The notes under the pieces are model-generated. The model saw only the letters and a list, made by a program, of their open reading frames with translations. It did no database searches and was not told the origin of the DNA. 64,000 nt of DNA, from contig JAFCMP010000423.1 of NCBI GenBank assembly GCA_017506865.1, positions 496,001 to 560,000 of the forward strand. The letters are read 5' to 3'. Origin of the DNA: Tribonema minus. Taxonomy: Eukaryota; Sar; Xanthophyceae; Tribonematales; Tribonemataceae. The position numbers and the translations under genes are program-made. Below are positions 3,712 through 64,000 of this stretch, piece after piece; position 1 is the stretch's first letter, and each line of letters begins with the position of its first letter.

Positions 3712-3744
3712 CCAACGCTTGGCGCTTTGCGGAGGACGGAGGGC

Positions 3745-3771
3745 GGGGGGGGGGGGGGGGGGAGGAGGGGG
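3745..3771 (+). repeat. Poly-G tract after ankyrin-like copy 1
   Basis: A run of 18 G (3745-3762) followed by GA-rich sequence lies 34 bases after the stop codon. A G-rich tract sits in the same place after all five family members. It could form a G-quadruplex in the 3' UTR; this is inferred from composition only. Confidence 0.9.
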
Positions 3772-8527: not shown

Positions 8528-8544
8528 CCAATGCTAGCTGCGTT

Positions 8545-8581
8545 GGGGCGGGGGCGGGGGGGGGAATTGGGGGAGGGGGGG
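8545..8581 (+). repeat. G-rich tract after ankyrin-like copy 2
   Basis: Several G runs broken by C, A and T lie 18-54 bases after the stop codon, in the same position as in the other copies. Confidence 0.85.
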
Positions 8582-11563: not shown

Positions 11564-11715
11564 CAAGCGACGACCTTTTGGCTCGCTATTTATCGGAGGC
11601 ACTGATGGCGGCCTGCGGCGCTAGTCGTCGGCCATGATTTCACGCCGTACAAGTGCCGCTGCTGCAGCGCGCGCTGGTAGAATTTCGTGACTCGCCACCC
11701 AGGTTCAAGTTGAAG

Positions 11716-12736
11716 CCAAAGCTCCAAGTATATTTATAGATGTTGAGTTGCCAATGTGCTATTACACAGCACGTCGCAGTGTGTATATTGCAGGAAGCAC
11801 AGAATACTGTGTTGCTATTGGGTGTAAGCACATATATGTAACGGAAAACAAGCAATTTGAAGTCCATGGTCTTGACCTTCATGAGGGAGACCTCCGCCCC
11901 GGAGTTTCATGCTGCATCAAGCTGCAAGGTTGCCAACAAAACGTATTTGGCCACACATATACGGCGTATTTAGGGCGTATTTGGGGTGTATTTGGCAACC
12001 AGGAATACGTCGTGAGCAAACTGCAACATTATATCATGCTGCGTGAAGGGCGTATTTGTGGGGCATGCGGTGAGTCTGCTCAATTCCGAGCATACAGTCT
12101 GCCACAAAAGGGGCACTTAAACTCCGAAATAAACTTCAAAATACGCCTTTGTGCAACCCTAAGAATTTCATGCAGCTACGAACACATGCAAATCAATCAC
12201 GAGCCGTGCATGCCTGATTTGCCAAACCTTCAAATAGACTGAATGTGAAGGGCAGGGTTGTAGCCACCCAGACCGCATGCTACAAATTTTGTTACAGTTG
12301 TTCAGTCTCAGAGTCCGTTGTCATCAAAGTATTTCATCGACGTTCATCGACTTTTATCATGGACTGCATCTTTACACATTTAATGCCCCATCACAGGCCA
12401 GCTGTTAGGCGCACACTTACCGCCGAAGTGCTCCTAACGTGTGACACACAATGCCCCCACAGCCCTTACTTCGGCTGTGCTATAGTATATTAGCACAGAT
12501 GCACCGCAGAGGCTGATCAGCTCCTCCCGCTGCATACCATCGATCATGACATGGCGTGCTATAGGAGTGACATGCAGCACGCTCTGCAAGCTCAAGTTCT
12601 TACGCCAGGGGCACGCTGAAAGTCTTATAGCCATCTGTACTTTTATTAGTTCTCGCTCAGGGCGCAAAAAAGCCCATATGATGATGGTCTAACTTGAAGC
12701 TGCTGTACGGAATCTACATGTCGTGTGACAGTCTGA
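11716..12736. repeat. Decayed repeat block, copy 1, left part
   Basis: There is no supported gene, although frames of up to 164 codons are open. Short segments recur in the same order at 13.7-14.8 kb (for example aacacatgcaaa and agccacccagaccgcatg near 12190-12280, matching 13800-13900). Parts return again near 36.4-36.6 kb and, inverted, near 50.8 kb. This is an old dispersed and tandem repeat family. Confidence 0.5.
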
Positions 12737-31004: not shown

Positions 31005-31991
31005 CCGATGGCAGAGCTACGAATTGGCAAGGCCAGGCGCACAGGACGCAGCGCTGCTGCAGCACATCCAGTCCTTACGCTGGCTTCGCACATCCTTGTC
31101 TTCCTGAATCCCTCAGTTATGATCAGGTGCGCCTGCCGCTGTTTTCATGGCACTATAGAGGAAATTTACGAGGCCAAGAAGCGACACTTGACCGTGGCAG
31201 CGGATGCTGTCGCCAGCGTCAGCCTGCTTGGGTGGGCCGTAGAGGAAGATTTGCAGCCCGAAATGGCCTTGAAGTCCTGCATCCGTACCGGCGAGCTTAC
31301 GGGCCTGCGTCTGGTCCACAGCACATACGGTGTGCCTCTGACAACGTATCATTGTGATTTAGCAGCTCGCAAAGGGCACCTCGGGGTAGTACAATGGCTG
31401 CGGGGCCATGGTTGTCCATGGGACACTTTCACGTGCTCTAGCGCTGCGGACTGCGGGCACCTAGAGCTGTTGCAGTGGGCACGAGCCAATTGCTGCCCAT
31501 GGGACACGTACACCTGCTCCAGCGCTGCGCGGCATGGACATCTTCAGTTGCTGCAGTGGGCACACGCAAACGGGTGCCCGGGGAACGACAGCATTTGCAA
31601 TGCTGCTGCAAATGGCGGGCAGCTGCACATCCTGCAGTGGGCACGGGATAGTAATCTCCCTTGGAGCCGTACCACGTGCGCTGCGGCCGCCACATACGGG
31701 CACCTCGAGGTGCTCCGGTGGCTGCATGCCAATGGGTGCCCCTGGGACAGCCGCACCTGCAGAGGTGCTGCCCGCAGCGGCAACCTGGAGATGCTGCAGT
31801 GGGCCCGCGAACGCGGATGCCCCTGGGACGCGGATACCTGCGCCTACGCCGCCGTCGATGGTCACCTCGAGGTGCTGCAGTGGGCGCGCGCAAACGGGTG
31901 CCCCTGGGACAGGCGCACCCGCAGCTGGGCTGCGCTCGGCAGGCATGAAGAGATGCTGGAGTGGGCGCGCGCGCAAGGATGCCCGGAGTAA
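31005..31991 (+). CDS. F-box-like/ankyrin-like repeat protein, copy 3
   Basis: This 328-residue protein starts at the ATG of MAELRIGKARRT and ends at TAA, unlike the TGA of the other copies. It has the F-box-like N-terminus (HILVFLNPSVMIRCACRCFH), a degenerate first repeat, seven full 27-residue repeats and the half repeat AQGCPE. The odd fifth repeat is present (LHILQWARDSNLPWSRTTC). The unit before it lacks the Trp of the GCPWD core (GCPGNDSIC), as it does in the other copies. No zinc-finger partner gene follows it. The frame is intact, so it is probably expressed; the role is inferred as for copy 1. Confidence 0.85.
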   Translation, partial: PMAELRIGKARRTGRSAAAAHPVLTLASHILVFLNPSVMIRCACRCFHGTIEEIYEAKKRHLTVAADAVASVSLLGWAVEEDLQPEMALKSCIRTGELTGLRLVHSTYGVPLTTYHCDLAARKGHLGVVQWLRGHGCPWDTFTCSSAADCGHLELLQWARANCCPWDTYTCSSAARHGHLQLLQWAHANGCPGNDSICNAAANGGQLHILQWARDSNLPWSRTTCAAAATYGHLEVLRWLHANGCPWDSRTCRGAARSGNLEMLQWARERGCPWDADTCAYAAVDGHLEVLQWARANGCPWDRRTRSWAALGRHEEMLEWARAQGCPE

Positions 31992-32011
31992 CGGATGCTA
32001 GCCGCTCCAGA

Positions 32012-32041
32012 GGGGGCGGCGGGGCGGTGGGGGGGGGGGGG
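32012..32041 (+). repeat. G-rich tract after ankyrin-like copy 3
   Basis: Broken G runs ending in 13 consecutive G lie 21-50 bases after the stop codon. Confidence 0.9.
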
Positions 32042-33560
32042 CGCATTGAGGAGCGCAAAGTGGAGCACGCAGCTGCGGCGGCAGCGAACGGCAGTCAGGA
32101 GGCTCAGGGCAAAATAGCTGAAGGCTGCCGGTACAGGTATGGTAAACTGTCTATCTTTCTAGCTGATTGAACAAGGGGGCGTAAGCCTCCGCACAGTGTG
32201 CAGCACGCATACTATTAGCTGCTGTAGGAGAGACTGGTACAAGGCCTTTGGGCCGTCATTGTAGGCCTATATTAACTGTCACACACCGTGGCCCCTTGCC
32301 AAGCTTCACAGCTGCGGTTAGCGCTGAGTTTGAATGCACATGCACTCAGCGGATGACCTTGGTGCAATGTTGGCTTCCGGTGTCTCTGTCCGCTGTTGGA
32401 CGTTGGCGTTTGTGCTGAGATGCATGCAGTAATGCTAGAACATGATACCTGATAGTACCATACCAATACACATGGCGCACGCACCACAGCGCAGCTGCAT
32501 GCTTTACTGTTGTGTCTCTCGCGCACCATAATTTCTCGAAGCGTGGCCAAAGCGCATGCATCCACTTGCTCTTGCGCTTGAGTGCGCGAGCAGAACATTG
32601 ACTGTTGCATGCACACTTGCACTTTTGCGACCACCACAGCGCTGCAACGAAGGTGACGGCGCTGTTCCGCAGCCGATACTTGTCATGCTGCCGAATGCAT
32701 GACACATGACACAAAGCTCTGCATTACATGATCCCAACACAATGGCACAGGCGTCGCCGTCTTGACATGAATGACACAGTATAAAGCGCTCAATTACGCT
32801 TTCATGTGGTTTTGGTGCAGCGGCTTGCTTGCCGCAAGTGCCTTTGTCCTCGTGTCTACACCCTGCTGGCTATGCTATGCGCGGTTTTGGCCGCAGTTGA
32901 AGGATGCCATGTATATAGGGTGCTGCACTTGGAGCTTAGTGTACGAAAGAAGAATCATAATCATTGCTGCTAATTGAGGTATATAGCCTTTAATACAACG
33001 TACATCCACACATGTAGCCTGCATGATGGTTGATGAGTGGATATTTGCATTCGATCTTTCGCAGAGCGCGAGGCCTACACATCAAACCTCAAACTGCTGC
33101 CGTGCAACGGTTTGCTACGTAGTGTTTGTCCGTCTGGCACAGCGAGTTACAATTTTTACAGATTACCAAGGCATGATGATCCTACGCGCTTTACCAACGA
33201 AGCTTGTTCACACGTACCGTGCTCCATGAAGCGATTCACAAGCATAAAAGGTTCAATTACAACACACCAAGAGGCCACTCAACAACACATCCAGGTATGG
33301 GCGATGCATCAAAGCTGATCAATGCCGTGCTCGATCAGCGAGAATAGGCAAACTGTGTGTTACCATGGTTGCACGCGCTACCCTGCCCACTTGCGCCTAT
33401 CTGGAATGTTTTACCCCACTTATTTTATAACACCACTAGTGCCACTACTGTCCTGCTGCTGTCGCTGTCGCTGTCGCTGTCAGTGAATTAATTAGTTTCG
33501 TCTGCACTTTAAGTACTTGAAGTGCAACAAATCTTTTCCCGACGTAAGCAGATCGAAAGG
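32042..33560. other. 3' flank of copy 3 and spacer
   Basis: The first 0.7 kb is homologous to the 3' flanks of copies 1, 2 and 5 (around gagagactggtacaaggcc and tgcacatgcactcagcggat). A short gctgtc microsatellite lies at 33457-33481. No gene is seen. Confidence 0.55.
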
Positions 33561-34789
33561 ATGGTAGAGCTGCCTGGTGGCAAGGCGAAGCGCACGGCAA
33601 GCAGCACAGCAGAATATGCAGTGCTCACGCTGGCTTCGCACGTCCTTGCCTACCTGGCTCCCTCGGTCATGATCAGGTGCGCCTGCCGTGGCTTCCATGA
33701 CATGATAGAGCAGATTCACGATGCCAAGAGGCGACACAGGACCGTGGCAGCGGAAGCTGCCGCCAGCGCCAGCCTGCTTCGGTGGGCCGTGGAGGAAATC
33801 TTAGGTTTGCAGCCCGAAATGGCCTTCAGGTCCTGCATCCGTAGCGGCGAGCTATCGGGCCTGCGTCTGGTTCACAGCACATACGAACTGCCCCTGCAAC
33901 AGTTCCACTGTGATTCAGCAGCAAACAGAAGGCACCTCGAGGTAATACAGTGGCTGCGGGGCCACGCTTGTCCGTGGGACACTCCTACGTGCTCAAGCGC
34001 TGCGGGCTGCGGACACCTGGAGCTCTTGCAGTGGGCGCGAGCCAATGGCTGCCCATGGGACGCAGGCACCTGCTACGGCGCCACGCTGCATGGACATCTG
34101 GAGGTGCTGCAGTGGGCCCACGCAACGGGTGCCCAGGAAGCGATTTCATTTGCAGCACTGCTGCAGGGAGTGGGCAGCTGCACATCCTGCAGTGGGCACG
34201 GGCTAATGATTTCTCGTGGAGCAGTGCCACGTGCGCTGGCGCCGCCACATGGGGGCGCCTTGAGGTGCTGCGGTGGCTGCACGCCAATGGGTGCCCTTGG
34301 GATGAGGAGACCTGCTCTGGCGCTGCCGCTGGCGGGAACCTCGAGGTGCTGCAGTGGGCACACACTACTGGGTGCCCCTAGGACAGCAGCACCTGCAGCG
34401 GCGCTGCCCGCAGCGGGAAACTGGAGATGCTGCAGTGCGCACGCGACCACGGATGTCCATGGGACGAGGAGACCTGCTTTAGGGCTGCCGCTCGCGGGGA
34501 CCTCGAGATGCCGCAGTGGGCACGTGCAAATGGGTGCCCCTGGGATGGGGAGACCTGCAGCGGCGCTGCCTGCAGCGGAAACCTCGAGATGCTGCAGTGG
34601 GCCCGCGAACACGGATGTCCGTGGGGCGAGGACACCTGCGCCAGCGCCGCACTAAATTGTCATCTTGAGGTGCTGCAGTGGGCACACGCAAACGGGTGCC
34701 CCTGGGACAGGCGCACCTGTAGCTTGGCTGCGCTGTACGGGCATCAGAAGGTGCTGGAGTGGGCGCGCGCGCATGGATGCCCGGAGTGA
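33561..34789 (+). pseudogene. F-box-like/ankyrin-like repeat gene, copy 4 (broken)
   Basis: It starts like its paralogues (MVELPGGKAKRT). The frame is lost near 34124, where one A of the cacgcaaacgggtgc core found in other repeats is missing. The sequence then continues in another frame with intact 27-residue repeats until a TGG-to-TAG change at 34379, in a GCPWD core. After that the same frame runs on to the family stop at 34787-34789 (AHGCPE). With both breaks ignored it would hold about eleven repeats, more than copies 1-3. The two clean lesions point to recent loss. A sequencing error could explain the indel but hardly both lesions. Confidence 0.85.
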
Positions 34790-34810
34790 CTAATGCAACA
34801 TAGCGGCGTT

Positions 34811-34852
34811 GGAGGGGGGGGGGGGGGGGTCGGAAGGGCGGGGGGGGGGGGG
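34811..34852 (+). repeat. Poly-G tracts after ankyrin-like copy 4
   Basis: Two long G runs, of about 16 and 13, separated by tcggaagggc, start 22 bases after the stop. Confidence 0.95.
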
Positions 34853-37319
34853 CTGCGGTGAGGGGCGGAAAAGAGGAGCACGCTGCTACGGCGGCAGCAA
34901 CGACGGTCAGGAGGCTCAGGGCATAATAGCTGAGGGCTGCCGGTACAGGCACAGGTATGATTACTGTGTCTGCTAGTATCTTTCTGCTTAACTGATGCGT
35001 GGGGTGGAAGCTTGTGCCTCGGGCCAGTGCACAGCGTGCATAGGCGTTGTAGAAGAGACTGGCAAGATGCCGTCGCACTGAATCATTGCATTTTAATAGC
35101 TATCATACCTCTGTCCCCTGCTTCACATGGGGCAGCTTTTTTTGTTGAGTGCAAAGAACCTGCACACGGCGGATGAGCTTGGTTTTACTTCCCACTTCTC
35201 CTGTATGTTGTTGTATGTTGATGTCTGTGCTGAGAGAGTACACAAGCTGTCCGCGTGCACATGGCTCGGCACCACGAGGTTCACTGTTGTGTCATGCACG
35301 CATCAGAAAGTTGGCCAGCGTGCGAGACACGCATCCGCTTGCGTGCGCTACATCACATGTGTCATGCAGGCCTGCAAGTACTTTATGTTTCAACATCTTG
35401 GTGAGGGCGTAAAAAGCTCACATGATTGATGTCAGGCTTGCTACGAGGTCTGCATATATACCCTTGTCACGAAGTGTCTCAGTGTGCAGTGAGGATTACT
35501 ACACGACACCGCATATGGCATCTCCACTGGCATGCATGCCTGTGCTTCACTTTGAGGTACTTCCTTTTGCGACCACCACAGCGCTGCAGTTTAGTTGACA
35601 TTGCTGTGCCGCAGACCATACTTGTCATGCTATCGGTCGAGGTGATGGTCCCTGCGCATTCGCGTCCAACCCGGAGTCCGCTAATGAGTGTGCCATGTGG
35701 AGTGCTAGCAGCTGCACCTGGAGCATAGTATACCCAACTCGAATCGTGCATGGCTTGCTTGATGGTAGATGAATAACTCTCTGCGCGCGGTTTTTAAAAT
35801 TGGCAACGCACATCTGTGAGATTCTGAAGCAGGTTTGTTAGTCGCAGCATCGAGGTAGTTGCTTACGCGTAACTAGATGCGTCACTCTGTAAGCCTTACC
35901 TATGGCATGACAACTACGGCCAAACCTCAAAAGCAACCTTTGTTGAAGTTGAGCTACACACCCAAAAAACTTTGATGGAGTTTGACTTCAACACCTTCAA
36001 TTTCAAATATTTATAAAACGTCAAACTGTATTTTTTGTGGCGGTGGTCTCGCTATCGCGCCCTCCAACAACAGCAGCTTGTCTGCCGATAGCAATCAATA
36101 TATGTATATACTTTATGGACTATATGTATCTGGCACGAGTCACTGTGACTGTACTTGCCACTGGCGTGGAGAAGTGCCAGAATGGAACGGTTCTGTGCAA
36201 ACACGGAGTTGGGCTGGGCATGATGGTTGCGCACCTCGCCAAGGTGGCTTGCGCAATTTGCAACAATGCCCTTTCTGCAGAGGTGCAGAGACCTTCTGCA
36301 TGGCGCCAAACTGGCAAAGCGCAGCAAGACCGCAGCCGTGCGTGCACACTTAGTGTAGTATCTGCCACTGCTAGGCAGGCGCATTGCATTGCACGTTTTG
36401 CATTTCAAATTCTCGCTTGGGGGACGCGAAAAAAGCCCAGATGGTACAGATGTCCAGCTTGCTACCAGAATCCCACACCTGTCTTGTGGAAACTCAAAAG
36501 TGTCTCATTGCGCATTGTCGATCACTTGTAAACGACATTGCTTTATGACTTCTCTCACCCCATTGTACGTGTATGAAATGCATGCATTATGCAACAACCC
36601 AAGCTGATGTTGAAGTATGTGAAAGCTCAGCTTGAAGTCTGCCATCATTTGCCCGGACTTCAGGAATTTGCAGTAGCTTACTAATAATACTTACTAATAA
36701 TACTTACTGCTGGTTTTGACGTAATTGGCACCATTCAAATGCATCAACACTAAATGCATCAACACTAATACTTACTGCTGGTTTTGACGTAATTGGCACC
36801 ATTCAAATCATCAACACATGTGAGGGGAGTGCAATTATGCCAACAGGTTTGAGAACACATGTCAAATTATGTGTTACCGGTTGTGGTTGTATGCGTTTAA
36901 CGCCTAGGCCCGCGCACGCGTGCACACAGCAATAAAAAAACTGGACCCACTTCAACGAGAAGTCCGCATACTTTCAAAGAAGCTTGCGCTCGCAGCCCCA
37001 CAAGGGTACAGTACAAATCAACAGGGTACAGTGCAAGCTCCGAGTTCTGGCTCGGGAGTTTCAGGAAGAGTTCAAGTAGTTCGGGGCCGTGACTGGGTTG
37101 TAGCCGTAACCTCCGGAACTGAAAACGCTCGCAACGTCACAAGGTAGCACCGTAAGCCTGCTGCAGCAGCTCACACGCCTGTGAAGCCAATCAAGGCTTG
37201 AAAGTAGGTGGGGTAGGGTTGAACTACTTACTCAGCGTCAACAACTTCAAAGTTGACGTGCAGTTCAGGGATAGCAAACTCGAAATCACTCAGGATCACC
37301 CACACTGCAGATCAAAAGC
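34853..37319. other. Spacer between copies 4 and 5
   Basis: The left part is 3' flank related to the other copies. Sequence at 36.40-36.56 kb belongs to the dispersed repeat family of 12.4-14.1 kb (around cgatcacttgtaaacgacat). No gene is supported, although a 164-codon frame is open at 36.04-36.53 kb. Confidence 0.5.
36697..36808. repeat. Local direct repeats
   Basis: A segment of about 43 bases around ttactgctggttttgacgta occurs twice. Between the copies lies a duplicated gcatcaacactaa and before them a duplicated taatacttac. Confidence 0.9.
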
Positions 37320-38702
37320 ATGGTAGAGTCACTTATTGGCAAGGCCAGGCGCACCGCCGGCAGCGCAGAACATCCAGTGCTCACGCTGGGTTCGCATATC
37401 CTTGCCTTCCTGGAGCCCTCGGTCATGATCAGGAGCGCCTGCCGCAGCTTTCACAGCATCATACAGCAGACTCACGAGGCCAAGAGGCGGCACAAGACCG
37501 TGGCAGCGGAAGCTGTCGCCAGCGCCAGGCTGCTTGGGTGGGCCGTCAAGGGAGGATTGCAGCCCGAAGTAGCTCTCATAGCGTGCGTACACAGTGGCGA
37601 GCTCAAGGGCCTGCGTCTGGTCTACAGTACATACAGACTGCCCCTGAAACAGCTCCACTGCAACGCAGCAGCTTGCGCCGGGCACCTCGACGTAATGCAG
37701 TGGCTGCGGGGGCACGGTTGCCCATGGGATAGTTCCACGTGCTCTGACGCTGCGCGCCTCGGGCGTTTAGAGCTGTTGCAGTGGGCGCGAGCCAATGGCT
37801 GCCCATGGGACGAGCGCACCTGTTCAAGAGCAGCACTCGATGGACATCTCGAGCTGCTGCAGTGGGCCTACGCAAATGGGTGCCCAGCTGACGACAGCAC
37901 TTGTAACGCTGCTGCGGAGGGCGGGCACCTGCGCATCCTGCAGTGGGCACAGGCTAATGCCATCCCCTGGAGCAGTGCCGCGTGCACTGGCGCAGCCAGA
38001 TTTGGGCACGACGACGTGCTGCGGTGGCTGCATGCCAATGGGTGCCCCTGGGACGAGGAGACCTGCTGCAGCATTGCCCTTGGCGGGGACCTCGAACTGC
38101 TTCAGTGGGCACTTACCAATGAGTGCCCATGGGATGAGGAGACCTGCGCCAACGCTGCCTTTGGTGACAGCCTCGAAATGCTGCAGTGGCTGCGTGCCGC
38201 TGGGTGCCCATGGGACGAGGACACCTGCTCTAGCGCTGCCAGTAGCGGAAACCTCGAGCTGCTGCAGTGGGCACGCTCAAATGGGTGCCCCTGGGACAGC
38301 GGCACCTGCAGCGACGCTGCCGGTAGCGGGAGCCTGGAGATGCTTCAGTGGGCCCGTAAACACGGATGCCCATGGAACGAGAAGACCTGCGCCAGCGCCG
38401 CAGAGGACGGTCATCTCGAGGTGCTGCAGTGGGCACGCTCAAATGGGTGCGCCTGGGATAGCCGCACCTGCAGCGGCGCTGCCCAATGCGGGAACCTGGA
38501 GATGCTGCAGTGGGCCCGCCACCACGGATGTCCGTGGGACGAGGAGACCTGCGCCAGCGCCGCAGGGAGAGGTAATCTCGAGGTGCTGCAGTGGGCGCGC
38601 GCGAATGGCTGCCCCTGGGACAGTCGCACCTGCAGGGGCGCTGCGGGTTGGGGACACTTGGAGGTGCTGGAGTGGGCGCGCGCGCATGGATGCCCGGAGT
38701 GA
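37320..38702 (+). CDS. F-box-like/ankyrin-like repeat protein, copy 5 (longest)
   Basis: This 460-residue protein starts at the family ATG (MVESLIGKARRT). The F-box-like N-terminus (HILAFLEPSVMIRSACRSFH) is followed by a degenerate first repeat, twelve full 27-residue repeats and the half repeat AHGCPE. It has four or five more repeats than the intact copies 1-3. The extra ones are in the second half, where neighbouring units are alike (GCPWDEETC, GCPWDEDTC, GCPWDSGTC), as expected from recent unequal crossing over. The odd fifth unit (LRILQWAQANAIPWSSAAC) keeps its place. No zinc-finger partner gene lies nearby. The intact frame suggests a working gene. Confidence 0.85.
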   Translation: MVESLIGKARRTAGSAEHPVLTLGSHILAFLEPSVMIRSACRSFHSIIQQTHEAKRRHKTVAAEAVASARLLGWAVKGGLQPEVALIACVHSGELKGLRLVYSTYRLPLKQLHCNAAACAGHLDVMQWLRGHGCPWDSSTCSDAARLGRLELLQWARANGCPWDERTCSRAALDGHLELLQWAYANGCPADDSTCNAAAEGGHLRILQWAQANAIPWSSAACTGAARFGHDDVLRWLHANGCPWDEETCCSIALGGDLELLQWALTNECPWDEETCANAAFGDSLEMLQWLRAAGCPWDEDTCSSAASSGNLELLQWARSNGCPWDSGTCSDAAGSGSLEMLQWARKHGCPWNEKTCASAAEDGHLEVLQWARSNGCAWDSRTCSGAAQCGNLEMLQWARHHGCPWDEETCASAAGRGNLEVLQWARANGCPWDSRTCRGAAGWGHLEVLEWARAHGCPE

Positions 38703-38721
38703 CCATTCATGCTAGCTGCGT

Positions 38722-38759
38722 TGGGGGGAGCGGGGAGGGGCGGGTGGGGGGCGGGGGTG
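38722..38759 (+). repeat. G-rich tract after ankyrin-like copy 5
   Basis: G runs broken by single A, C or T lie 20-57 bases after the stop, as in the other copies. Confidence 0.85.
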
Positions 38760-40510
38760 CAGTGAGGGGCGGAAAAGAGGAGCACGCAGCTGCAGCGGCA
38801 GCAATGACGGTCAGGAGCTGAGGGCATAATAGCTGAGGGCTGCCAACGCAGGTACCATTGATTTGTCTCCTACTGTAGTACCTTTCCGGTTGGTTGACCA
38901 GTGGGCTGCGAGCTGGTGCGCAGTGCGCAGCACGCATGGCCTGTGTAGAAGAGACTGGTACTATGCCTTTGCACTGAGTCATTGCGTTCAATAGCTACAA
39001 GACCCTTTTCCCCTGCTTCACATGGGGCAGCTGTTAGCCCTGAGTTTAAATACACATGCGCTCAGCGGACGATCTTGGTTCAAGGACTTCCGTGTGTCCT
39101 GTCCGTTGTTGGAAATTGTGCTGAGAAGTGTGCAGCACATGCTAGTACATGATAGTGCATGCCGGTACACGTGCGCCCCCACGGTGCAGCACTGTATGCT
39201 TCATTGTTGTGTGATGCACTCACCAGCGCTTTTTGATTGAAGGTTGCCCAATGCGCAACGCATGCATCCACTTGCTCGTGCTTGAGTGCGCGAGCAATGC
39301 ATCAACTGTTGCATGCACACTTGCACTTGTGCAAGCACCACAGCGCCACGACCAAAGGTGACAGCGCTGTGTCGCAGTTTATACTTGTCTTGCTGTCAAG
39401 CGAATCGTTAGTGTGCACTCACATCCGCTCCTATGCATATGCACGACACAGAGCGCAGTATACATGATCAATGCAATGCTAGAGGATTTGCCATGTCATC
39501 ACGGAAAACTGACATGGTCGATGCAAAATGCTCCATCAGGCTGCCATGTCACGCTGAAACAGCGCCTCGCCTGCCGCAACAGCTTCTGTTTTACTATGCC
39601 AAGCAGGTTCTTGCCCGCAAATATAGAGTACTTCGAAGTATATATATATGCCATGTGGAGCGCTGCAGCTGGAGCGTAGTGTATGCAAGGCGAATCATCA
39701 TGACCATAGCTGCCAGTAAAGGTGCGTGGCCTGCTTGATGGATGGTTTTCCGATGTCTGCATACGAGTTGGCAACGGAGCTCTGCGAGGAAATACAGGTT
39801 TGTCAACAGATCCGATTGTTGCCCAACTCATAATCATCGTCATGGGTGGTTGCAGTAACTGAGAGTTTCAGAAAATATGGGGCATATCATATGCTGCATA
39901 TGGATCTTCAGCCTGTTGTCGTCGAGATTTTCAACTGATATGTTACAAGGTGAGGGCAAACCTCCATTTGTCAAATGTCCAAGCGTCGCCGTGACGCCTA
40001 ACATGTGGCTGCTTGACATGCTGTGTGCAGCACTTCTGCCTGGCACAGCAACTTGCAGTTTACACTGAGACAAGACACTGAGGTCCCCACGCGGTCACCA
40101 CCAGACCTCTTGCCAACGGTGTTTTTGATGCACATCAAGCACCACGGTGCAACACACATTCAAAGCGTGAACAATTTATCTGTATGTTCTACTTCTAGTT
40201 CTACAATGCGACCAAAGCCTACCCAATGGACTTGATGTCATCATGACGAGAAGTGCAAGAAAATGTGCTGCGCGTTCAAAATGGCTTCGGAGTTGTTGGC
40301 AGTGTGCACCCAGGCATTGTTGGGCTACAGACCAGCCTCTCAAACCCGTAATCCAGCTGTAAAACAATCCCGCATGTAGATGAATGATAGTTTGTACCTG
40401 GCTTCATTGACGAAAATCTTCATCATCAAGCCACCAAAAATGAGCAAGTCAAGACCGCAAATGGCAACAATGTGGATATCATGTATTCAAATACACCACT
40501 GCAGCAGTTC
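38760..40510. other. 3' flank of copy 5 and intergenic region before the UFL1 end
   Basis: The first kilobase is family 3' flank. The remainder lies between two convergent genes (ankyrin-like copy 5 and UFL1). No gene is supported and no clear polyadenylation signal stands out. Confidence 0.5.
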
Positions 40511-55723: not shown

Positions 55724-57522
55724 CTGAAATCCTCCAGTGTGAGCGTGTTGCGCCGTGGCAGTATGAAATTGCGTCCACCTTTGTCGTGCTGAGGAAAGCA
55801 CTGAGCGCTAAACTGCCCTGGCTCCAGCTCTCATTCGTTGGTGGTGCGTGCGCTCTCTTGATCGACTATGTGTGGATCTTGAAGGCAGCCAAGATCTTGT
55901 CTTGCGATTGAGAATGCAGAGACTGTATGGCACGGCTTTGGCTGTAGCGGTAGCTTGGCTAAGCGTGGAGATGATGCATCTCCAGCTATGCTTGCCACTA
56001 CAGCAGCAAAGGTAGTTCTCCCTCTCAATTGCAGAACTTAAATTGCGGGAGAGGACCCACTGCGAGTGGGTCGAGTCCTGGGTACGTGAACGGACGTGAA
56101 CGTGCAAGATGGAACAACAGTTCTCTTTCTCTGATCTTCACTTACCAATGTGATTACGCTTGGGTGATGTACACAGCAGATTCATTCGCTCACGTCATTG
56201 AGTCACCGTAAACTCGTGATTTAAATTGCAGCGTCTGCCCGCTGGTGCCCCCCCCCCCCCCCCCCTCCGGACGGGGGGGGGGAACGTTCACGTAGCTCGC
56301 CTGCGCTTTACCTGAACCTTTAGATATACTATCCACCAATCAGCTGTCAAGAATTAGGTTTGGCCTGTACAACAGCAGCACCTGCTCTTATCCACCAAAA
56401 CAGATTGCAAACGAATGCGTATTTGACCGTTCAAAAGTTTAGCCGCCTTGAAGTCAGATGTGCTGTTGATACAAGTTCTCTGTTTTATGCTACAAGTAGC
56501 ATGAAATGCCAGGAGCTCTGGAAGGGGGAGACCGTTCTCTGGACCGGTACTTCAACTTCAAGCCCTGTGCCAGCAACTAGGAGGAAGGCTCTTTTTCGCT
56601 TCAACAACAAGTGCTCAAGGCACCTACAAGGCAAGCAACAAGAGGCCATCCTGGCTGGGAGACAGCAAGACCTCTGGAGCTGAGCCATATCCATTGGGCT
56701 CACTCTCCTTCTTCAGTCATGTCTACACAGGTGTGTCTTTGTTTGCCCCACTGATGTTTGCCCTGCAAGTTGGTTGCACTTTGATGTCACTAGCAGCTCA
56801 GCAGCTCTATTGCTCAAGAACATAGACTCCAGGCTGCTTTGCTGTATCATGGCTCAGCTCCACTTGCCGGCGACAACATCGGTGCTAGACTTTGAAGACT
56901 CTGTCGATTACTCCGACACAGTTTAATGCCGTGCACTTAGGCCACGAAGGTGTTCTGAAGTACTGCGTCCGCGACGGGGTCGCGTTGGCGGTGCAACAGA
57001 CACATAGGGACGCTGCTATGTACTAAGACTGCCCAGCGTCTATCAGTTGCTCGCATGCTATGGCAAGTCCGTGCTGTTTAGTCCTGCAGACGACAGCATG
57101 CGATCAACGAAGCTCACGGTGTTTCCCTTCCAGCACACGGCTGCTAGGCACAACTGGCTATACTGTCAGACTAGGTGCTCCAGCTACTTTGAGGAATCCG
57201 TGAGCATGGACACGCAACCATGCAACAGCGTTTTCCGTCAGTTAGTGTGAGCGCCGCTAACTGATTCGTGCACCTCGGCACAATGTTGCGTGCAGCGTGA
57301 AAACTCATGTATGCAACGGGACTGATCACCCCGACGCATTTTGAGTTGACAATGTGGAGTTGTCCACACGCTGGCTAGACTCGCCTAGGCCGACCCTGGC
57401 ACGCTTTTTCAAGTGGAAAGGGGAATTATCGGCTTCTGCATAACCTCTGAGCAGATTGCATAAACTTTGAGCACTTTGAAAATCTTGAGCGCTCTGGCAC
57501 GCCGTCGACGCGCACATTTTGA
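55724..57522. other. Region between UFL1 and the retrotransposon coding part
   Basis: It should hold the UFL1 first exon and promoter (on the minus strand) and, to the right, the 5' LTR and leader of the retrotransposon. No LTR ends can be fixed because the 3' LTR lies outside the window. A run of about 18 C followed by tccggac and 10 G at 56248-56282 forms a C/G hairpin. Confidence 0.5.
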
Positions 57523-58203
57523 GCGTTTGCCCGCTCTACACAGAAGTGCGTACTAGCGACGAGTTGCCAACTTTGTCGTGTGTCTCAGGGAGGAAGTGCT
57601 ATCCACACTGGCAACGCCGAACAGCCTGCGACGGCCTTAGCCTCCGTTGGGGAAACGGGTGGCGCGGGAACCGGCGGTGAGAGTAGCGGTGGCGGTGCGG
57701 ATCCGCAGGCACAGCCCCCCCCTGTGCACCCTGTGTCGGCGCCTCCTGCCGATCAGGGCGGCATGTCGGCTGCGGTCGCCTCGATCCCCGCGAGCGCTGG
57801 GACTGCACCGACTGCCACTCCGCCTGTCACTGCCGCTCAAGCTCAAGGTCCCCCCGCGTCCTCCGGAAACCTGCCGGTCGCGACATCCGCCGCACCTGCC
57901 CCGGCTTCCGGTGATGGTCGAGAGCAGATGGACGACATTGTTCGAGGACTTCGCGCTGCTCTCCCCGCTATAAGCGACGAGGCTCTGCGCCGTGCTGCAG
58001 AGCGCGTGAGCGCTTCGGTGCGTCCAGCTGCTAGTACCACTGCTAGCCTCGACCCAGCCATACTCTTCAGCGCCGGCACCGCTGCAACTCCAAGCGTCGC
58101 CGCCGTCCCCCCGACCTCTTCTGGGGACGTCGAACGCGTCGCCCTCCAACCGCATGACGCAGCCCCTTCGCCAAGACTTCCGCAAGGAGCGCCTTATACT
58201 TGA
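57523..58203 (+). CDS. Retrotransposon Gag-like N-terminal open frame
   Basis: The frame is open from 57523 to a TGA at 58201, with no ATG before 57763. It is Ala/Pro/Gly-rich at first (ADPQAQPPPVHPVSAPPAD), then has a helical segment with EQMDDIVRGLRAALPAISDE and ALRRAAERVSASV, as expected for a structural protein. No capsid domain can be named. The main polyprotein frame overlaps its end in the next frame (+1). Gag and Pol may therefore be joined by programmed +1 frameshifting, by an intron, or this copy may have an indel. The missing early ATG suggests an upstream exon, a non-AUG start, or a start at 57763. Confidence 0.55.
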   Translation, partial: AFARSTQKCVLATSCQLCRVSQGGSAIHTGNAEQPATALASVGETGGAGTGGESSGGGADPQAQPPPVHPVSAPPADQGGMSAAVASIPASAGTAPTATPPVTAAQAQGPPASSGNLPVATSAAPAPASGDGREQMDDIVRGLRAALPAISDEALRRAAERVSASVRPAASTTASLDPAILFSAGTAATPSVAAVPPTSSGDVERVALQPHDAAPSPRLPQGAPYT

Positions 58204-61200
58204 AGACTGGAACGCCATGGTCGACCGCACCGAGGACTTTTACAAAGCCATGCGTCCCCAACAGCTCGCAGACTTCAAGCGCAACCTCAAAGAGGCAGCT
58301 GAGCGGCAGGGCATGGCGCTCGCTATCGTCAACGAGGGCGCCAAGGCCAAGACTAGCGCCATGCGCGGCAGCGCCGCTATGGACACTTCGGACGAGGGCC
58401 ACCCTAGGGCTGCGGCGATGGCTCCCGCCAAGCCTGCCAAGCAGCCGGCCAAGCCCAAGAGCGACAAGGCCAGGGCTTCCAGCAGCGACGAGTGCTTCGG
58501 GTGCCACAAGCACTTTGGTGGAGAGAACAAGCTCCGGGAGCACTGCCAAGAGTGCCCGGAATGGTACGAGCACCGCATCGAGCGCCTGAAGGCCGCCAAG
58601 AGGCCCCACGACAAGCTGGAGAAGCGCCGCGACGAGCTGCGCGCCAAGCGCGCCAAGACAAGTGAGTGTTCGCTCACCGCTTTCCACACCTTGCCTAGTG
58701 CACTCATGGATGTTGACGCGCCAGTGCAACTTGGGCACAGCGGTCATTGCACTAGCTCCACGCAAGATGTGCTAGAAGCGCTAGATGTGCAACCAGCGGC
58801 GACTGAGGCCGGCACACAAGTCACTACACGCATGCTTGACAAGACCGTTGGCACTTGCATGTTAGCCACATTCTTGTATGCGCATAGTGAGCTAGCAGTA
58901 CGCGCACTTGACACCAGCGCACCTTTGACTGCTCCAGATGCCAGTGACGCTCCAGCAGTATGCGCACCTGACACTAGCGCACCCTTGACTGCTTTGGGCA
59001 CCAGTGACACAACCAGTTGCGCGCCGCTTGCAGCGCAAGATGTCGCTCATGATGTTGCTACTCCGCAGCCAGGTAAGACCGACGTTTCTGACTCTGACCC
59101 CAGATGCGTTGCACCTACTTCCACCACTTCGCCCGTGTCATATCCGCAGACTAAGGAGGCGTCTGATGCCGACGCGGGGCGTTCGGACAGAAGGCGGCTG
59201 CGGGTGGCAGAGTTGTGCTGTGGAATAGGGGGTGTACATAGGGGGTTGCAGGAGTTCGCACGTGCAGCAGACGTTGACGTGCAGGTGGTCTTAGCGGTAG
59301 ACAACTGCAAGCGTACATGTGAGGAGTACAGCAAACTCTTCCCTGACACCGAGGTCATATGTGCAGATGTATCTAGCCCCCAAGTTCGCGAGAGGCTCAA
59401 GCACCTCAAGCCAGACGCGATTTGGAATACATCTTCTTGTGTTGAGTTTTCCCCTGCGGGAATGGGGATTGAAGGCGATGCAGCACGCACGCTTGTACAT
59501 GTTGCGGAGATTGCTGCCGATTGCCTGCCAGCTCTAGTCATCAACGAAAACGTGCCTAGGATGCTCCTATCAAGCTCATGGCGTGACTTCTGCCGCGTCG
59601 TGGGTACAAAGGGGTACTCCACCTATGAGGTGCAGTTTCGTGGGACCGACGTCAATGGTGCATCTTCACGCGAGCGCATCTATACTGTGTCAGCTGCAAA
59701 TGCTGCTCGGTTGCCTGAACGATTTGCACGCTTGAATGCAATTCTCAATGAGCGCTTTCGCACCAGCAAGCCACGTACGGTCCGTGAACATCTTGGTTGC
59801 TCCCATGACACGTTTTATTGGGACCCGAGGCAACCCACGACGCAAGGCGTGCTGTCTACTGACATGCCGCTCCCTAGCCCTGTTACTCGCCAGCCTGGGC
59901 GGGGCCCCTCCTCGTCTTATCAGCCACGTGAGAAAGACGCGGGACCGGTTAATAAGGCCCTTGTCTTGACTGTTGATCAGGTCATGAACTTGCTGGGCTA
60001 CTTTGAGCCACATCCTTCCGGGACCATCACTCAGATGAAGCGCTGGGCTGCAAACTTAGTGCAACCCAATTGCGTGTCAGCGCTCATGCTTGCCTTGCAC
60101 GCGGTCGCCGCCTTGCCGGAGGAGTGGCCAAGCCCTCGTGATGCCACTGGCGTCTCACCAGGTGAGGTTGTAGTGCATGATCGCACTTCTCCCCCGCCAG
60201 AATGGATGGTAGACTCCAGCCCTGATCTGCCTGTAATACTGCGCCTAGCTAGTACTTGCGTGCGGAACTTCCAGCGTTTTACACGCAATGTAGGCCAAGC
60301 CATACTTGCATCATTTCGGCCTGGAAGTGATGCACCGGTTTCGCAGACGCCTTGGACGTACGGTGAAGATGAGGAAGAGCCTTTGACTCCTCATGCTTCT
60401 CATGCGCCGCATGTCGAGACGCCACGTGCTGTTGCAATGCGAGAAATGAGCGACATTGACAGCGATGCAGATGCTCAGCAGCCTAGTGCTAGTAGCATTG
60501 CTACCGATGTTTTCAAGGCTCAACCCAGGCGCATAGCACGTGACAAGCCTCCCAAGATTCTACATAGGGCACGTGCAGTCGGCAGACCTAAGAAGAATGG
60601 CTTTGTGCACATGCCAATACGCACACAAGTTGGTAACGGCATACAAGAACTGGTACTTGACGCGTTAGTGGACAACGGCGCCGAGGCCGAGTTCATTAAC
60701 ACAGAACGCGCACACCAGTTGCCGCCGGGTTCAATTTGCCCGCTGTCCGAGGGTGATTTTACCACGGTTGAACTTGCAGACGCCAAGAAGTCTGTGCCAA
60801 TTTCAGGTGTAGTGCACGCCCAGGTGCGCTTCAAAGACACCATATTCACACACGCTTTTTACGTGGTGGACCTGCCTTACGAGGCAATCTTGGGGTCACA
60901 TTTCTTTGGCAAATTTGGCTCGTCCATCACCTATGAACATGGCATGCGATTCCACCCCGCTGGATCCGCTGGACCTGCCGTTGCCATGCATGAACAAGCT
61001 AAGTTGGGGACTCTAGACCCCCCAGCTGCCAACACGATCAAGGTGGGTGTTACAAGAGCCAAGTCTTCTCAGAGGCCCACTTTGCCTAGTCGCACTTATT
61101 TGCTGCGTACAACGTGTGACCAGGTGCTTAAAGCTGACACCGCTAAAACCATTGAAGTAGTGTCACATCCACCAGTACAGTGCACAGGCCCTGTTGAAGT

Positions 61201-64000
61201 GCTACTCACCCCTGACGCGCCAGAGGCGTCAGTGATGGCAAACAGGCTGGCCGCCAGAGGTGCCGTTCTCATGGATACGGTGGGCTTTGTAGCACCTAAC
61301 AAGCCACTAGGGATGTTAGTCGAGAACACTTCCACTGCGCCAGTGTTTGTGCCTAGAGGTGCAGTGCTAGGCGTCATTGAGGCCCCTGACATGATCTGCA
61401 GCCTAGACATTGGCAAAGAGGAGCTTGTGGCTAACTTGACAAGAATTGCGTTGAGACACCTTGGGCAAAACGCACCAGATACACCTGCTGTAAACAGATC
61501 AAGACCTGTGCAGCAGCCAGACCCCTCGTGTGTGCCAGAACACGACTCGCCAAGACCAGACCCTGCCATGCGCGCTGAGGCGGAACGAGCCGCATTCAGA
61601 CACAAGGTGGCAGAGGAGCACAATGCCTCGCTGGGAACTTGCACAGACGAGGAGCTACGTGAAGTGCTGTGTGACAAGAACGGGGAGATCTTCAACATCC
61701 TCAAGCAACGCGATCGACACGGCGTCACCTATTATGACCGCGCCATGGAGGTGCTTCGCCGGCGACGAGGCGCCTTTGCCAAGGACCCCAAGAACCCCAA
61801 GGTGACGGACCGTTTTGACGTGGACATTGACACAGGCGACGCAGCGCCCATCGCCGACAGGGCACGCAGGTGGGCTGAACGCGAAGCTAAAATCATATTT
61901 GAAGCCATTGAAAATGAGCGCAAACGCGGACAGATCAGACCTGCCAATGGTCCTTGGGCTAGCAATCCAGTGCTGGTGACTCAGAAGGACAAGGTCCGTT
62001 TCTGCGTTGACTATAGGCCGCTCAACAGAGTTACACGCCGTGATGAGTATGGGCTTGGCAATATGGACGACTTGGTTCAGAAATGCTCGGGCTCACGCAT
62101 ATTCTCGGCACTAGACTTTGCTTCTGGTTACAGGCAAATACCTATGACTAGAGAATCAACCTGCAAGACGGCATTCCGGGCACCTGATGGCTCACTCTGG
62201 GAGTACAAGGTCGCGCCGTTTGGGTTGGTGTGCCTGCCAAGTATATTCACCAGATGCATGCATGAGCTCCTAGGCTCAGCCAGGCAAACGCATGCGTGCG
62301 TGTACGTTGATGATGTGCTCGTACACAGCAAGAATCTAGAAGACCATATAGCTCACTTGGACGATGTACTTCGACGCGTGGAAGAGTACGGCATGAGTGT
62401 GTCTAGACACAAGTGCCAACTCTTTGCCGAAGAAGTTACATACCTAGGCCACAAGGTGGGCAAGTATGGAATCAAGCCATGTGAGGACAAAGTAAAAGCC
62501 ATGGTCGACATGATGCCACCCGTAGGCAAGGACGGCAAGGTAGATAAACGGCTAATGCAAGTCCTCATGGGGTGCTTCAATTACTATAGGCGCTACATAC
62601 ATCGGTTCGCGCATATTGCAGCTCCCCTAGTCGAGTGTACGCGTGATGGCGCTGACATGTCGTGGACCAAACGCCGCCAAGAGGCGCTGGCCAAACTCAA
62701 GCACACCATGTCAAACGCTCCTGTGATCATGCACCCAGACTTTGACCTACCTTTTATAGTACATACAGACGCAAGCAAGCTAGCCGTTGCTGGTGTTCTA
62801 TCTCAATTCGTGCCACTAGACAAATTACGTGAACGGCACAAGGACTTCCCCTGGGCCAGCACGCGCCGTGTCAACACAGTTGACGGCAAACCTGCCAGAG
62901 AGGTAGTTGTGGCATTTTTCAGCAAGATTAACTCAGTGCAGGACGCAAAACTTGGTGCTACTGCACTAGAGTGTCTGGCTGTAGTGCTAGCTTTGAACAA
63001 CTTCCGCGGTTACATTTGGGGCAGACCTGTAACCGTCGTAACCGACGCGTCTGCGCTTCGCTGGCTCTTGACCTTGAACAATCACAATAGCAAGCTGCTA
63101 CATTGGGCCATGCGTCTCCAGGAATACGACATCATGGTCGTACACAGGCCTGGCAAAGACAATGGCAATGCAGACTGCCCTTCACGCATGCCTCAGATGA
63201 CGGAGATCATCGGACCTAGGCAGTACGAGCACGCCGACGAGCAGTGGCCCGACTGCACCGATGCTGGACCTGCACCTCCGTCTGGGGTACGTTTTGATGA
63301 TGAACAACTGCAAGACTCACCAGCATTTCTAGGCCGTATAGGTGCTTATACGGCATCCCCAGGAGCCACGGCTTTTAAATTTAACAAACCTGCACAAATA
63401 TCTACAAAACTGAGCAACTGCATGGGTACATTGACACCTCAGGAGGTACATGACCTCAGTGATACCATGCACGAGAGCGCGTGCGTGCACACCGCGCTTT
63501 TCAAAGAAGAGGGAGGTGAACCAGAACTAGAAAACACTCCCCTCGTTTCCATGCTTTGCAGCATGAAATTGGGCTCGTATTCTGAGCACATTTGGGACAG
63601 CTGCGCTGCGATACTCTCGCCGCTTAGAGATGCAACTGCTCCAACCGAAACTAGCGAAATCACTGACCTTGCCCTTGGAGCTGAAGACGCTGAAGCAGAT
63701 ACTTCAGATGACAATATGTCAACCCAGACTGGAGAGTCTGACTCACGCCTAGAGTCTTCACCTGCTATGCTGGAACGCAAAAACTTTGTGCGTTGGCAGG
63801 AAAGTGACCATTTCTGTTCATCTGTGAAGCACTATCTGGAAACACAAGGCCAGACCCCTGACCCTAGCCTTGCCAAATTTGTCAGCCAGAACCAAGAGTT
63901 TTTCACAGTTGAACCTGACGGTTTACTCGTGCACTTCATGGCAAGTCGGTCAAAGAAGGGCACCTTAATTACTCAGTGGGTGGTCCCCGACGCTTTGAAG
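58154..64000 (+). CDS. Ty3/gypsy-type polyprotein with DNA methyltransferase (partial)
   Basis: One frame open for 1949 codons to the window edge; the first ATG in the frame is at 58154. Domains in order: a helical segment (LILEDWNAMVDRTEDFYKAM), a Cys/His finger near 58493-58555, a basic coil, a spacer with repeated SAPLTA elements, a cytosine-C5 methyltransferase (59200-60110), an aspartic protease (about 60640-60910), a linker with a beta-rich LVENTSTAPVFVPRG segment, reverse transcriptase (about 61740-62600) with YVDD, and RNase H (about 62740-63160). Integrase is expected beyond the end, because no zinc-binding HHCC is seen before RT and the frame ends in a segment like the one before it. 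The RT-RNase H order with integrase last is that of Ty3/gypsy. No stop or frameshift is present, so the copy may be young. Confidence 0.9.
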   Translation, partial: MTQPLRQDFRKERLILEDWNAMVDRTEDFYKAMRPQQLADFKRNLKEAAERQGMALAIVNEGAKAKTSAMRGSAAMDTSDEGHPRAAAMAPAKPAKQPAKPKSDKARASSSDECFGCHKHFGGENKLREHCQECPEWYEHRIERLKAAKRPHDKLEKRRDELRAKRAKTSECSLTAFHTLPSALMDVDAPVQLGHSGHCTSSTQDVLEALDVQPAATEAGTQVTTRMLDKTVGTCMLATFLYAHSELAVRALDTSAPLTAPDASDAPAVCAPDTSAPLTALGTSDTTSCAPLAAQDVAHDVATPQPGKTDVSDSDPRCVAPTSTTSPVSYPQTKEASDADAGRSDRRRLRVAELCCGIGGVHRGLQEFARAADVDVQVVLAVDNCKRTCEEYSKLFPDTEVICADVSSPQVRERLKHLKPDAIWNTSSCVEFSPAGMGIEGDAARTLVHVAEIAADCLPALVINENVPRMLLSSSWRDFCRVVGTKGYSTYEVQFRGTDVNGASSRERIYTVSAANAARLPERFARLNAILNERFRTSKPRTVREHLGCSHDTFYWDPRQPTTQGVLSTDMPLPSPVTRQPGRGPSSSYQPREKDAGPVNKALVLTVDQVMNLLGYFEPHPSGTITQMKRWAANLVQPNCVSALMLALHAVAALPEEWPSPRDATGVSPGEVVVHDRTSPPPEWMVDSSPDLPVILRLASTCVRNFQRFTRNVGQAILASFRPGSDAPVSQTPWTYGEDEEEPLTPHASHAPHVETPRAVAMREMSDIDSDADAQQPSASSIATDVFKAQPRRIARDKPPKILHRARAVGRPKKNGFVHMPIRTQVGNGIQELVLDALVDNGAEAEFINTERAHQLPPGSICPLSEGDFTTVELADAKKSVPISGVVHAQVRFKDTIFTHAFYVVDLPYEAILGSHFFGKFGSSITYEHGMRFHPAGSAGPAVAMHEQAKLGTLDPPAANTIKVGVTRAKSSQRPTLPSRTYLLRTTCDQVLKADTAKTIEVVSHPPVQCTGPVEVLLTPDAPEASVMANRLAARGAVLMDTVGFVAPNKPLGMLVENTSTAPVFVPRGAVLGVIEAPDMICSLDIGKEELVANLTRIALRHLGQNAPDTPAVNRSRPVQQPDPSCVPEHDSPRPDPAMRAEAERAAFRHKVAEEHNASLGTCTDEELREVLCDKNGEIFNILKQRDRHGVTYYDRAMEVLRRRRGAFAKDPKNPKVTDRFDVDIDTGDAAPIADRARRWAEREAKIIFEAIENERKRGQIRPANGPWASNPVLVTQKDKVRFCVDYRPLNRVTRRDEYGLGNMDDLVQKCSGSRIFSALDFASGYRQIPMTRESTCKTAFRAPDGSLWEYKVAPFGLVCLPSIFTRCMHELLGSARQTHACVYVDDVLVHSKNLEDHIAHLDDVLRRVEEYGMSVSRHKCQLFAEEVTYLGHKVGKYGIKPCEDKVKAMVDMMPPVGKDGKVDKRLMQVLMGCFNYYRRYIHRFAHIAAPLVECTRDGADMSWTKRRQEALAKLKHTMSNAPVIMHPDFDLPFIVHTDASKLAVAGVLSQFVPLDKLRERHKDFPWASTRRVNTVDGKPAREVVVAFFSKINSVQDAKLGATALECLAVVLALNNFRGYIWGRPVTVVTDASALRWLLTLNNHNSKLLHWAMRLQEYDIMVVHRPGKDNGNADCPSRMPQMTEIIGPRQYEHADEQWPDCTDAGPAPPSGVRFDDEQLQDSPAFLGRIGAYTASPGATAFKFNKPAQISTKLSNCMGTLTPQEVHDLSDTMHESACVHTALFKEEGGEPELENTPLVSMLCSMKLGSYSEHIWDSCAAILSPLRDATAPTETSEITDLALGAEDAEADTSDDNMSTQTGESDSRLESSPAMLERKNFVRWQESDHFCSSVKHYLETQGQTPDPSLAKFVSQNQEFFTVEPDGLLVHFMASRSKKGTLITQWVVPDALK
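58493..58555 (+). other. Cys/His zinc-finger-like motif of the polyprotein
   Basis: C-x2-C, twelve residues, then H-C-x2-C (CFGCHKH, REHCQEC). This is not the classical CCHC knuckle C-x2-C-x4-H-x4-C. A strongly basic helix (HDKLEKRRDELRAKRAK) follows, so nucleic-acid binding is likely. Confidence 0.65.
59195..60110 (+). other. Cytosine-C5 DNA methyltransferase domain in the polyprotein
   Basis: Motif I is RVAELCCGIGGVHRGL (59201 on; S-adenosylmethionine binding). The catalytic motif IV reads NTSSCVEFSPAG with Cys at 59438-59440, where most enzymes have Pro-Cys. Motif VI is ENVP (Glu at 59546). Motif VIII keeps R-x-R in ASSRERIYTV. After a target-recognition-like stretch of about 80 residues come motif IX/X counterparts: LTVDQVMNLLGYF, then ANLVQPNCVSALMLAL. 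All main motifs are in order in about 300 residues. The likely reaction is transfer of methyl to C5 of cytosine in DNA. The target may be the element's own cDNA or host DNA; this is inferred. Confidence 0.9.
60640..60910 (+). other. Retropepsin-like aspartic protease domain
   Basis: The active-site loop reads ALVDNGAEAEFI, with Asp at 60671. Asn stands where Thr or Ser is usual. The second conserved element is YEAILGSHFF (ILG at about 60887). Length and spacing fit a retropepsin. It should cut the polyprotein. Confidence 0.8.
61740..62600 (+). other. Reverse transcriptase domain
   Basis: Conserved elements: ANGPWASNPVLVTQKD, VRFCVDYRPLNRVT (61994 on), FSALDFASGYRQIPM, APFGLVCLPSIFTRCM and the catalytic YVDDVLVHS (62303 on), then VTYLGHKVG. 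Both active-site Asp of YVDD and the Asp of ALDFASGY are present. Confidence 0.95.
62740..63160 (+). other. RNase H domain
   Basis: Asp of VHTDASKLAVAGVLSQ (62768), Glu of TALECLAVVLAL and Asp of VTDASALRWLL are present. It ends with VVHRPGKDNGNADCPSR, typical of gypsy elements. Confidence 0.92.

Follow-up and report, generated by a model that had tools for sequence, protein, structure and literature searches.

The window analysed here, 64,000 nucleotides of Tribonema minus DNA (positions 496001-560000 of contig JAFCMP010000423.1, hereafter C423, in a 158-Mb genome assembly), ends inside a retrotransposon of the Ty3/Gypsy class. The element is flanked by long terminal repeats (LTRs) and carries a C5-cytosine DNA methyltransferase (DNMT) between the Gag and protease regions of its Gag-Pol polyprotein. 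It extends over about 10.2 kb, from window position 56467 to C423:562661 (Table 1), and belongs to a family that is real, abundant and recently active in this species. The host assignment to T. minus (Xanthophyceae) agrees with a protein recorded for this species, P0168 (JKP88DRAFT_249838), which matches G000:C540 of the assembly at 100% over residues 13-262 and at 99% over residues 258-483, the latter piece having two stops in the raw frame.

The 3' LTR lies beyond the window at C423:562279-562661 and matches the 5' LTR at 382 of 383 bases, base 2 being the sole difference; as both flanks also carry the same four bases, the insertion is recent. The paired LTRs are accompanied by a primer binding site and by a polypurine tract, AAAGAAGAGGGA, recognised by eye immediately ahead of the 3' LTR. 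The order of domains is that of Gypsy elements, protease, reverse transcriptase (RT), RNase H and integrase with an H2C2 finger, with the protease identified by its motif and the integrase located past the window end (Integrase_H2C2 3.4e-15; rve 3.4e-07, slightly under the curated cut-off). Gypsy RTs are the nearest relatives of the RT: the best 120 of 449 matches all carry RVT_1, most of them also RT_RNaseH and rve, and several named proteins among these 120 are called Gypsy. Cys/His fingers similar to that of the window frame were recognised by eye in proteins P0001-P0004. On sequence grounds chance is excluded as the source of the domain order, because several families of the T. minus genome and proteins P0002-P0004 keep the same order. 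The initial annotation had described a Gypsy-type element with a finger, a complete DNMT ahead of the protease, RT and RNase H in one frame, and the profile matches, motifs and intact catalytic residues agree with it on all of these points, the protease match being weak. The span that it gave, 57523-64000, contains a real element, but the Pol frame opens at 58010 and not at 57523, its first ATG being at 58154; the frame continues for 2025 bases past the window end.

Table 1. Features of the retrotransposon, in window coordinates
Feature	Position	Strand	Remarks
Putative 4-bp target site duplication, CTGT	56463..56466	+	Same 4 bases after the 3' LTR at C423:562662-562665
5' LTR, TGATACA...TGTATCA, 383 bases	56467..56849	+	CpG observed/expected 0.13
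LTR-internal TGGAGCTGAGCCA, putative self-primer	56675..56687	+	Exact complement of the primer binding site
Primer binding site TGGCTCAGCTCCA	56850..56862	+	Adjoins LTR; kept in subfamily A2 (L039)
N-terminal Gag remnant	57580..58203	+	Frame other than Pol; middle of Gag missing
Pol-type open frame	58154..64000	+	1949 aa within window, 2623 aa in total, ends at C423:562025
C2HC finger, C-x2-C-x12-H-x3-C	58493..58555	+	Frame residues 114-134
C5-cytosine methyltransferase domain	59192..60124	+	Catalytic Cys 59438-59440, ENV 59546-59554, RxR 59669-59677
Aspartic protease	60653..60904	+	Weak Pfam match 0.08, below curated cut-off; active-site motif VDNGA
Reverse transcriptase	61988..62458	+	RVT_1 4e-32
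RNase H	62663..63127	+	Profile match 3.2e-22

Immediately after the 5' LTR come 13 bases that complement exactly a stretch inside that LTR. The pairing covers 13-14 nt in A1, the subfamily of the window copy, and 15 nt in subfamily A2, each within its own LTR, though the LTRs of the two subfamilies hardly align; the 12-mer was found in none of 2000 letter shuffles of the LTR. There was no such match in three Copia elements, nor in one copy of lineage B1 (L016), which is a weak control because that copy is rearranged. A primer binding site able to pair with the 5' region of the transcript of the same element (the transcript start here being putative) is the signature of Tf1-like self-priming (PMC4600332), and it suggests that the element's transcript would prime its own reverse transcription, as in Tf1. 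The element resembles the self-priming chromoviruses of the Tf1/Tf2, Tj1 and Sushi group in this complementarity and in having Gag and Pol in one frame, as in its 3177-aa copies. To our knowledge, a DNMT is not among the parts of those elements.

The window copy itself is damaged. Over 188 residues its Gag piece shares 97% identity with the beginning of Gag in a copy on contig C257 (L041), whose Gag frame runs on beyond the equivalent of 58144, where the window copy breaks; the Pol frame of the window resumes at the position equivalent to residue 547 of P0001. From P0001 and the 3177-aa frames of other copies we estimate that about 350 residues are missing from the middle of Gag, so that this copy is probably not self-sufficient. 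Single frames of 3177 aa (five rows) and 3180 aa (one row) occur elsewhere. P0001 is 99% identical to T. minus locus L029 and may come from the same species as the genome.

Copies, lineages and captures

A search of the genome with PF00145 gave 123 scored matches from 378 candidates, including one Dnmt2 and at least three of viral type; 88 of the 123 lie in open frames of at least 1000 aa, 48 in frames of at least 2000 aa and 16 in frames of at least 3000 aa. With the window DNMT as query there were 120 genome matches, 23 of which are full length at 98% identity or more (the window copy counted; one has a stop). Among 44 RT rows that reach at least 87% identity, 43 have a DNMT no more than 7 kb upstream on the same strand; a 45th, which holds the second piece of the C81 copy, was omitted. 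Five of these DNMTs are as far off as 3.6-5.7 kb, and those on C216, C427 and C521 resemble duplicates of one stretch. An RT is likewise present in 19 of 20 loci fetched around DNMT matches (L013-L032), the remaining one, L017, being a 5.4-kb contig end.

These counts bear on the outcomes named at the outset as fatal, namely other copies free of the domain with a junction that betrays a one-off insertion or an assembly chimera, or a tree that puts the DNMT with a host gene inserted in this copy alone; none of these was found. That the DNMT is an insertion, a chimera or a host gene fragment confined to the window copy has next to no probability and is refuted by the recurrence of the same order in dozens of copies on different contigs and in proteins P0002-P0004; nothing in its favour was found, though the window copy does have a damaged Gag. 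The one RT row that has no upstream DNMT, C257, was considered as an ancestral DNMT-free copy and rejected: it matches window 56467-58144 and 60624-61750, and because 58145-60623 is missing there, and a piece of LTR in inverted orientation is present along with other displaced fragments, it is a rearranged derivative that has lost finger and DNMT through deletion and rearrangement. A 3129-aa group (C352) that was also considered DNMT-free has a PF00145 match (1e-13). Four close RT relatives, P0005, P0006, P0007 and P0010, have no DNMT in the listed frame; they show no DNMT-free sister, because P0005 is a near-twin of L014, whose DNMT sits in an upstream frame, P0010 ends inside the RT, and P0006 and P0007 start no further than about 185 and 50 residues, respectively, from the protease.

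We distinguish three DNMT-bearing lineages in the genome. In lineage A the DNMT stands ahead of the protease; it comprises A1 (the window), A2 (L029), A3 (L027, L028, L031 and L032), A4 (L014, L023 and L030) and A5 (L042), together with proteins P0002-P0004 and P0008. Lineages B and C are two further carriers with Gypsy-type RTs. B1 (L020) has Gag, protease, DNMT, RT, RNase H, integrase and chromodomain in one frame, its protease showing DTGA near residue 625 and a Pfam match of only 0.19. B2 (L013, L015 and L021) and B3 (L026) are broken copies, as are those of lineage C (L022, L024 and L025), in which the protease was not located. Behind the integrase B1 has a Chromo match (1.1e-6); the sole such match in the window lineage is to Tudor, weak and under the cut-off (E 0.0014), at the C-terminal end of the frame that starts in the window.

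The RT tree gives 100/100 support to each of the clades A, B and C (A including four rows in which no DNMT was seen), and approximately unbiased tests reject no union of them (A+B+C p 0.427, A+B 0.44, A+C 0.298, B+C 0.545). Support in the DNMT tree is 97/90 for A+C, 100/99 for B and 67/65 for A+B+C. Two to three captures are possible, as is one capture with shuffling; the different position of the DNMT in the two lineages A and B speaks for multiple events.

Other features of these and neighbouring sequences were noted in passing. An RT of A5 type at G000:C311:6490-7962 lies within one 6208-aa frame, about twice the usual length and perhaps two tandem elements. In B2 (L013, L015 and L021) a unit of about 99 bases is repeated in tandem close to where Gag begins, and related repeats recur further downstream. 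Two Gypsy polyproteins, P0066 and P0088, have PF00856 and PF00692 in their precomputed domains, which we take to be a SET domain and a dUTPase, and so carry other captured enzymes. Elsewhere in the window, 2127-11716 and 31006-39395 form a diverged repeat cluster (72-86% identical) with ankyrin repeats in four of four frames tested, one of them weakly, and represent an expanded ankyrin-repeat gene family. Broken pieces of the rubisco large subunit in the nuclear assembly (L011 and L012), presumably of the red-lineage type to judge by eye, are likely plastid DNA inserts.

Comparison with described elements

Retrotransposons bearing DNMTs are already known. SymbioLINE-Dnmt, SymbioDIRS-Dnmt3 and KnitGypsy-Dnmt3 were described in 2018 by de Mendoza et al. 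(PMC5890265), and DAM- and DCM-encoding Gypsy and DIRS elements have been reported from stramenopiles among others in general terms, the accessible text not naming the T. minus case (PMC6338049). What is new is this host, a DNMT without a DNMT3 match, its place before the protease and the self-priming signature. A search of titles and abstract openings, with the subscription literature mostly outside it, found no announced DNMT-bearing retrotransposons in Tribonema; T. minus is not named as a host in the available part of the 2018 study (PMC5890265), and the available part of PMC9998398 does not mention Tribonema.

The initial annotation had assigned the known cases to different element classes, a statement that is not upheld because the authors of KnitGypsy-Dnmt3, from the charophyte Klebsormidium nitens, call it Gypsy (PMC5890265); a 2025 paper terms it Copia and recalls the elements of the 2018 study as Copia and DIRS (PMC12344493). 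KnitGypsy-Dnmt3 resembles the T. minus element in its Gypsy-type domains, in encoding a cytosine DNMT within the Pol frame, in being present in several copies and in the purifying selection on its DNMT, but that DNMT is of DNMT3 type with a DIRS-like repeat arrangement (PMC5890265), whereas the T. minus element has a simple direct LTR pair and no DNMT3 match. The position of the T. minus DNMT ahead of the protease may be a further difference. The Symbiodinium elements likewise combine retrotransposon-borne cytosine DNMTs with high copy number, and SymbioDIRS domains methylate CG in yeast; they are, however, LINE and DIRS elements, the latter using a tyrosine recombinase where the T. minus element has a Gypsy integrase (PMC5890265). 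Gypsy-10_Ec32, an Ectocarpus Gypsy element that has a Tudor domain and a homologue in T. minus, is possibly of the same broad lineage as the window element in view of the latter's weak Tudor match; its account, as far as available, mentions no DNMT (PMC12477816).

The methyltransferase and its proposed role

Motifs I, IV (with the catalytic Cys), VI (ENV) and VIII (RxR) and the whole C5-methyltransferase fold are present in the DNMT domain (DNA_methylase profile match 1.1e-14 at frame residues 350-540), and the Cys, ENV and RxR are invariant in eight of eight representatives. Its predicted structure has the full M.HaeIII/M.HhaI fold, and the entire catalytic fold and motifs are shared with M.HhaI, M.HaeIII and DNMT2; the identity to these chains is 16-22% by VIA-align, and motif IV of the window subfamily is altered. 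The ratio of non-synonymous to synonymous change (dN/dS), 0.09-0.20 relative to the window copy, indicates that the DNMT is under purifying selection. No DNMT3 appears by name among the 53 PDB sequences matched in the profile search, DNMT1, DNMT2 and HhaI included; its absence from the VIA-align and Foldseek rows shown carries no weight as proof, and the DNMT tree contained no DNMT3 row. Patterns made from the window sequence alone gave no confirmed DNMT relatives in viral and genome contig collections; there was a single weak phage sequence match (24.8%), and the top match among viral structures, a phage enzyme, shares 23% identity. The genome also has stand-alone DNMT genes of 354-367 aa with the motif FPCVGLS (L001, L002 and L003), which may be endogenous viral genes: L001 and L002 group in the DNMT tree, and the frame adjoining L001 resembles, by eye, a phage-type deoxynucleotide kinase.

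In lineage A the LTRs of A1 and A2 are almost free of CpG. Observed/expected ratios are 0.13 in both A1 (3 seen, 23.8 expected) and A2 (3 seen, 23.9 expected); no value that low occurs in 685 overlapping windows of host DNA with comparable GC, nor in 136 internal windows, and the B1 repeat has 0.42. The LTR has about as much TpG and CpA as the host, which suggests avoidance of CpG rather than its decay. CpG-poor LTRs were found in every family examined, few as these are, with the extreme in lineage A.

The explanation towards which we lean, with moderate confidence in the whole of it, family identity included, is that the DNMT acts on the element's own cDNA. It would be made as part of Gag-Pol, packaged in the particle and cut free by the protease; it would then methylate the fresh double-stranded cDNA, probably at CpG, ahead of integration, and the new copy would arrive bearing a mark of the host's own DNA. 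Near-absence of CpG from the LTR would keep the promoter open.

Several observations weigh against this explanation. In yeast no activity came from the analogous domain of KnitGypsy-Dnmt3, a result that its authors deem inconclusive (PMC5890265). The LTRs of three Copia elements (L043, L044 and L045) are also CpG-poor, though less so (0.36, 0.46 and 0.63), their internal parts having 0.89-0.93, and as no DNMT was found in any of these three loci, a shortage of CpG in the LTR could be independent of the enzyme. CpG is, moreover, not depleted in the coding body (0.81 and 0.90, compared with 0.74 over the remainder of the window), which thus bears no mutational scar of past self-methylation; a family-wide depletion of that origin was considered and rejected, as it is absent from the coding parts. 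Apart from its bearing on the enzyme, the CpG-poor state of the Copia LTRs means that LTR CpG avoidance may be general in T. minus.

The nature of the substrate is a further point. Among solved sequences phmmer places the domain closest to the tRNA enzyme DNMT2 (2.9e-8), which is also the top Foldseek match, and the element seems to prime itself with its own RNA. The enzyme might thus act on RNA, either the element's genomic RNA or tRNA in the particle, and aid priming, stability or evasion of RNA-based silencing. We think this unlikely: the DNA enzymes M.HaeIII (27.5) and M.HhaI (26.7) outrank DNMT2 (24.3 and lower) by structural Z, and the host Dnmt2 fragment L004 groups elsewhere in the DNMT tree, albeit as a short row on a long branch.

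Doubt about catalysis arises from motif IV, which reads SSCVEFS in the window subfamily, the Pro and Gln of PCQ being replaced. Two further points count against the main explanation: of the six copies that were compared, L036 contains a stop and reads ETV instead of ENV, and the DNMT changes faster than the RT (62-64% versus 90-91%). A domain that is folded yet non-catalytic, serving as a nucleic-acid-binding or structural part of Gag, would accommodate the altered motif, but it fits poorly with the invariant catalytic residues and low dN/dS described above and with the motifs APCVDF in A2 and PPCTDF in A3, and we consider it quite unlikely.

The target might also be the host genome or rival elements, and not the element's own cDNA; widespread de novo methylation would then benefit the element or silence its competitors. 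The 123 scored matches, viral-type and Dnmt2 genes among them, would be compatible with such a role, as would the reported host complement of DNMT5 and a DNMT4-clade protein, with no DNMT1 in the published part available (PMC10538959); HELLS and CDCA7 are also reported there. The position of the domain within Gag-Pol favours packaging and action on cDNA, and methylation aimed at the host seems to us distinctly unlikely.

A more far-reaching idea, which we offer as a long shot, is that retrotransposons are the main source of new cytosine methylation in T. minus: several Gypsy lineages, having acquired DNMTs on two or more occasions and at differing positions in the polyprotein, would set the first marks on incoming copies, CpG-purged LTR promoters would escape, and the host DNMT5 would copy the marks on. 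DNMT5 in a yeast is known only for maintaining methylation.

Self-methylation of cDNA by the T. minus element is directly testable, because near-identical young copies are at hand and a published paper reportedly covers the transformation of this species (PMC7139823). The three DNMT lineages in one genome are natural replicates, with two DNMT positions in the two lineages whose protease was located. Our findings show that a stramenopile harbours an abundant family of LTR retrotransposons with a built-in DNMT, and they strengthen the view that transposons repeatedly gain by carrying an enzyme that is normally used to silence them.
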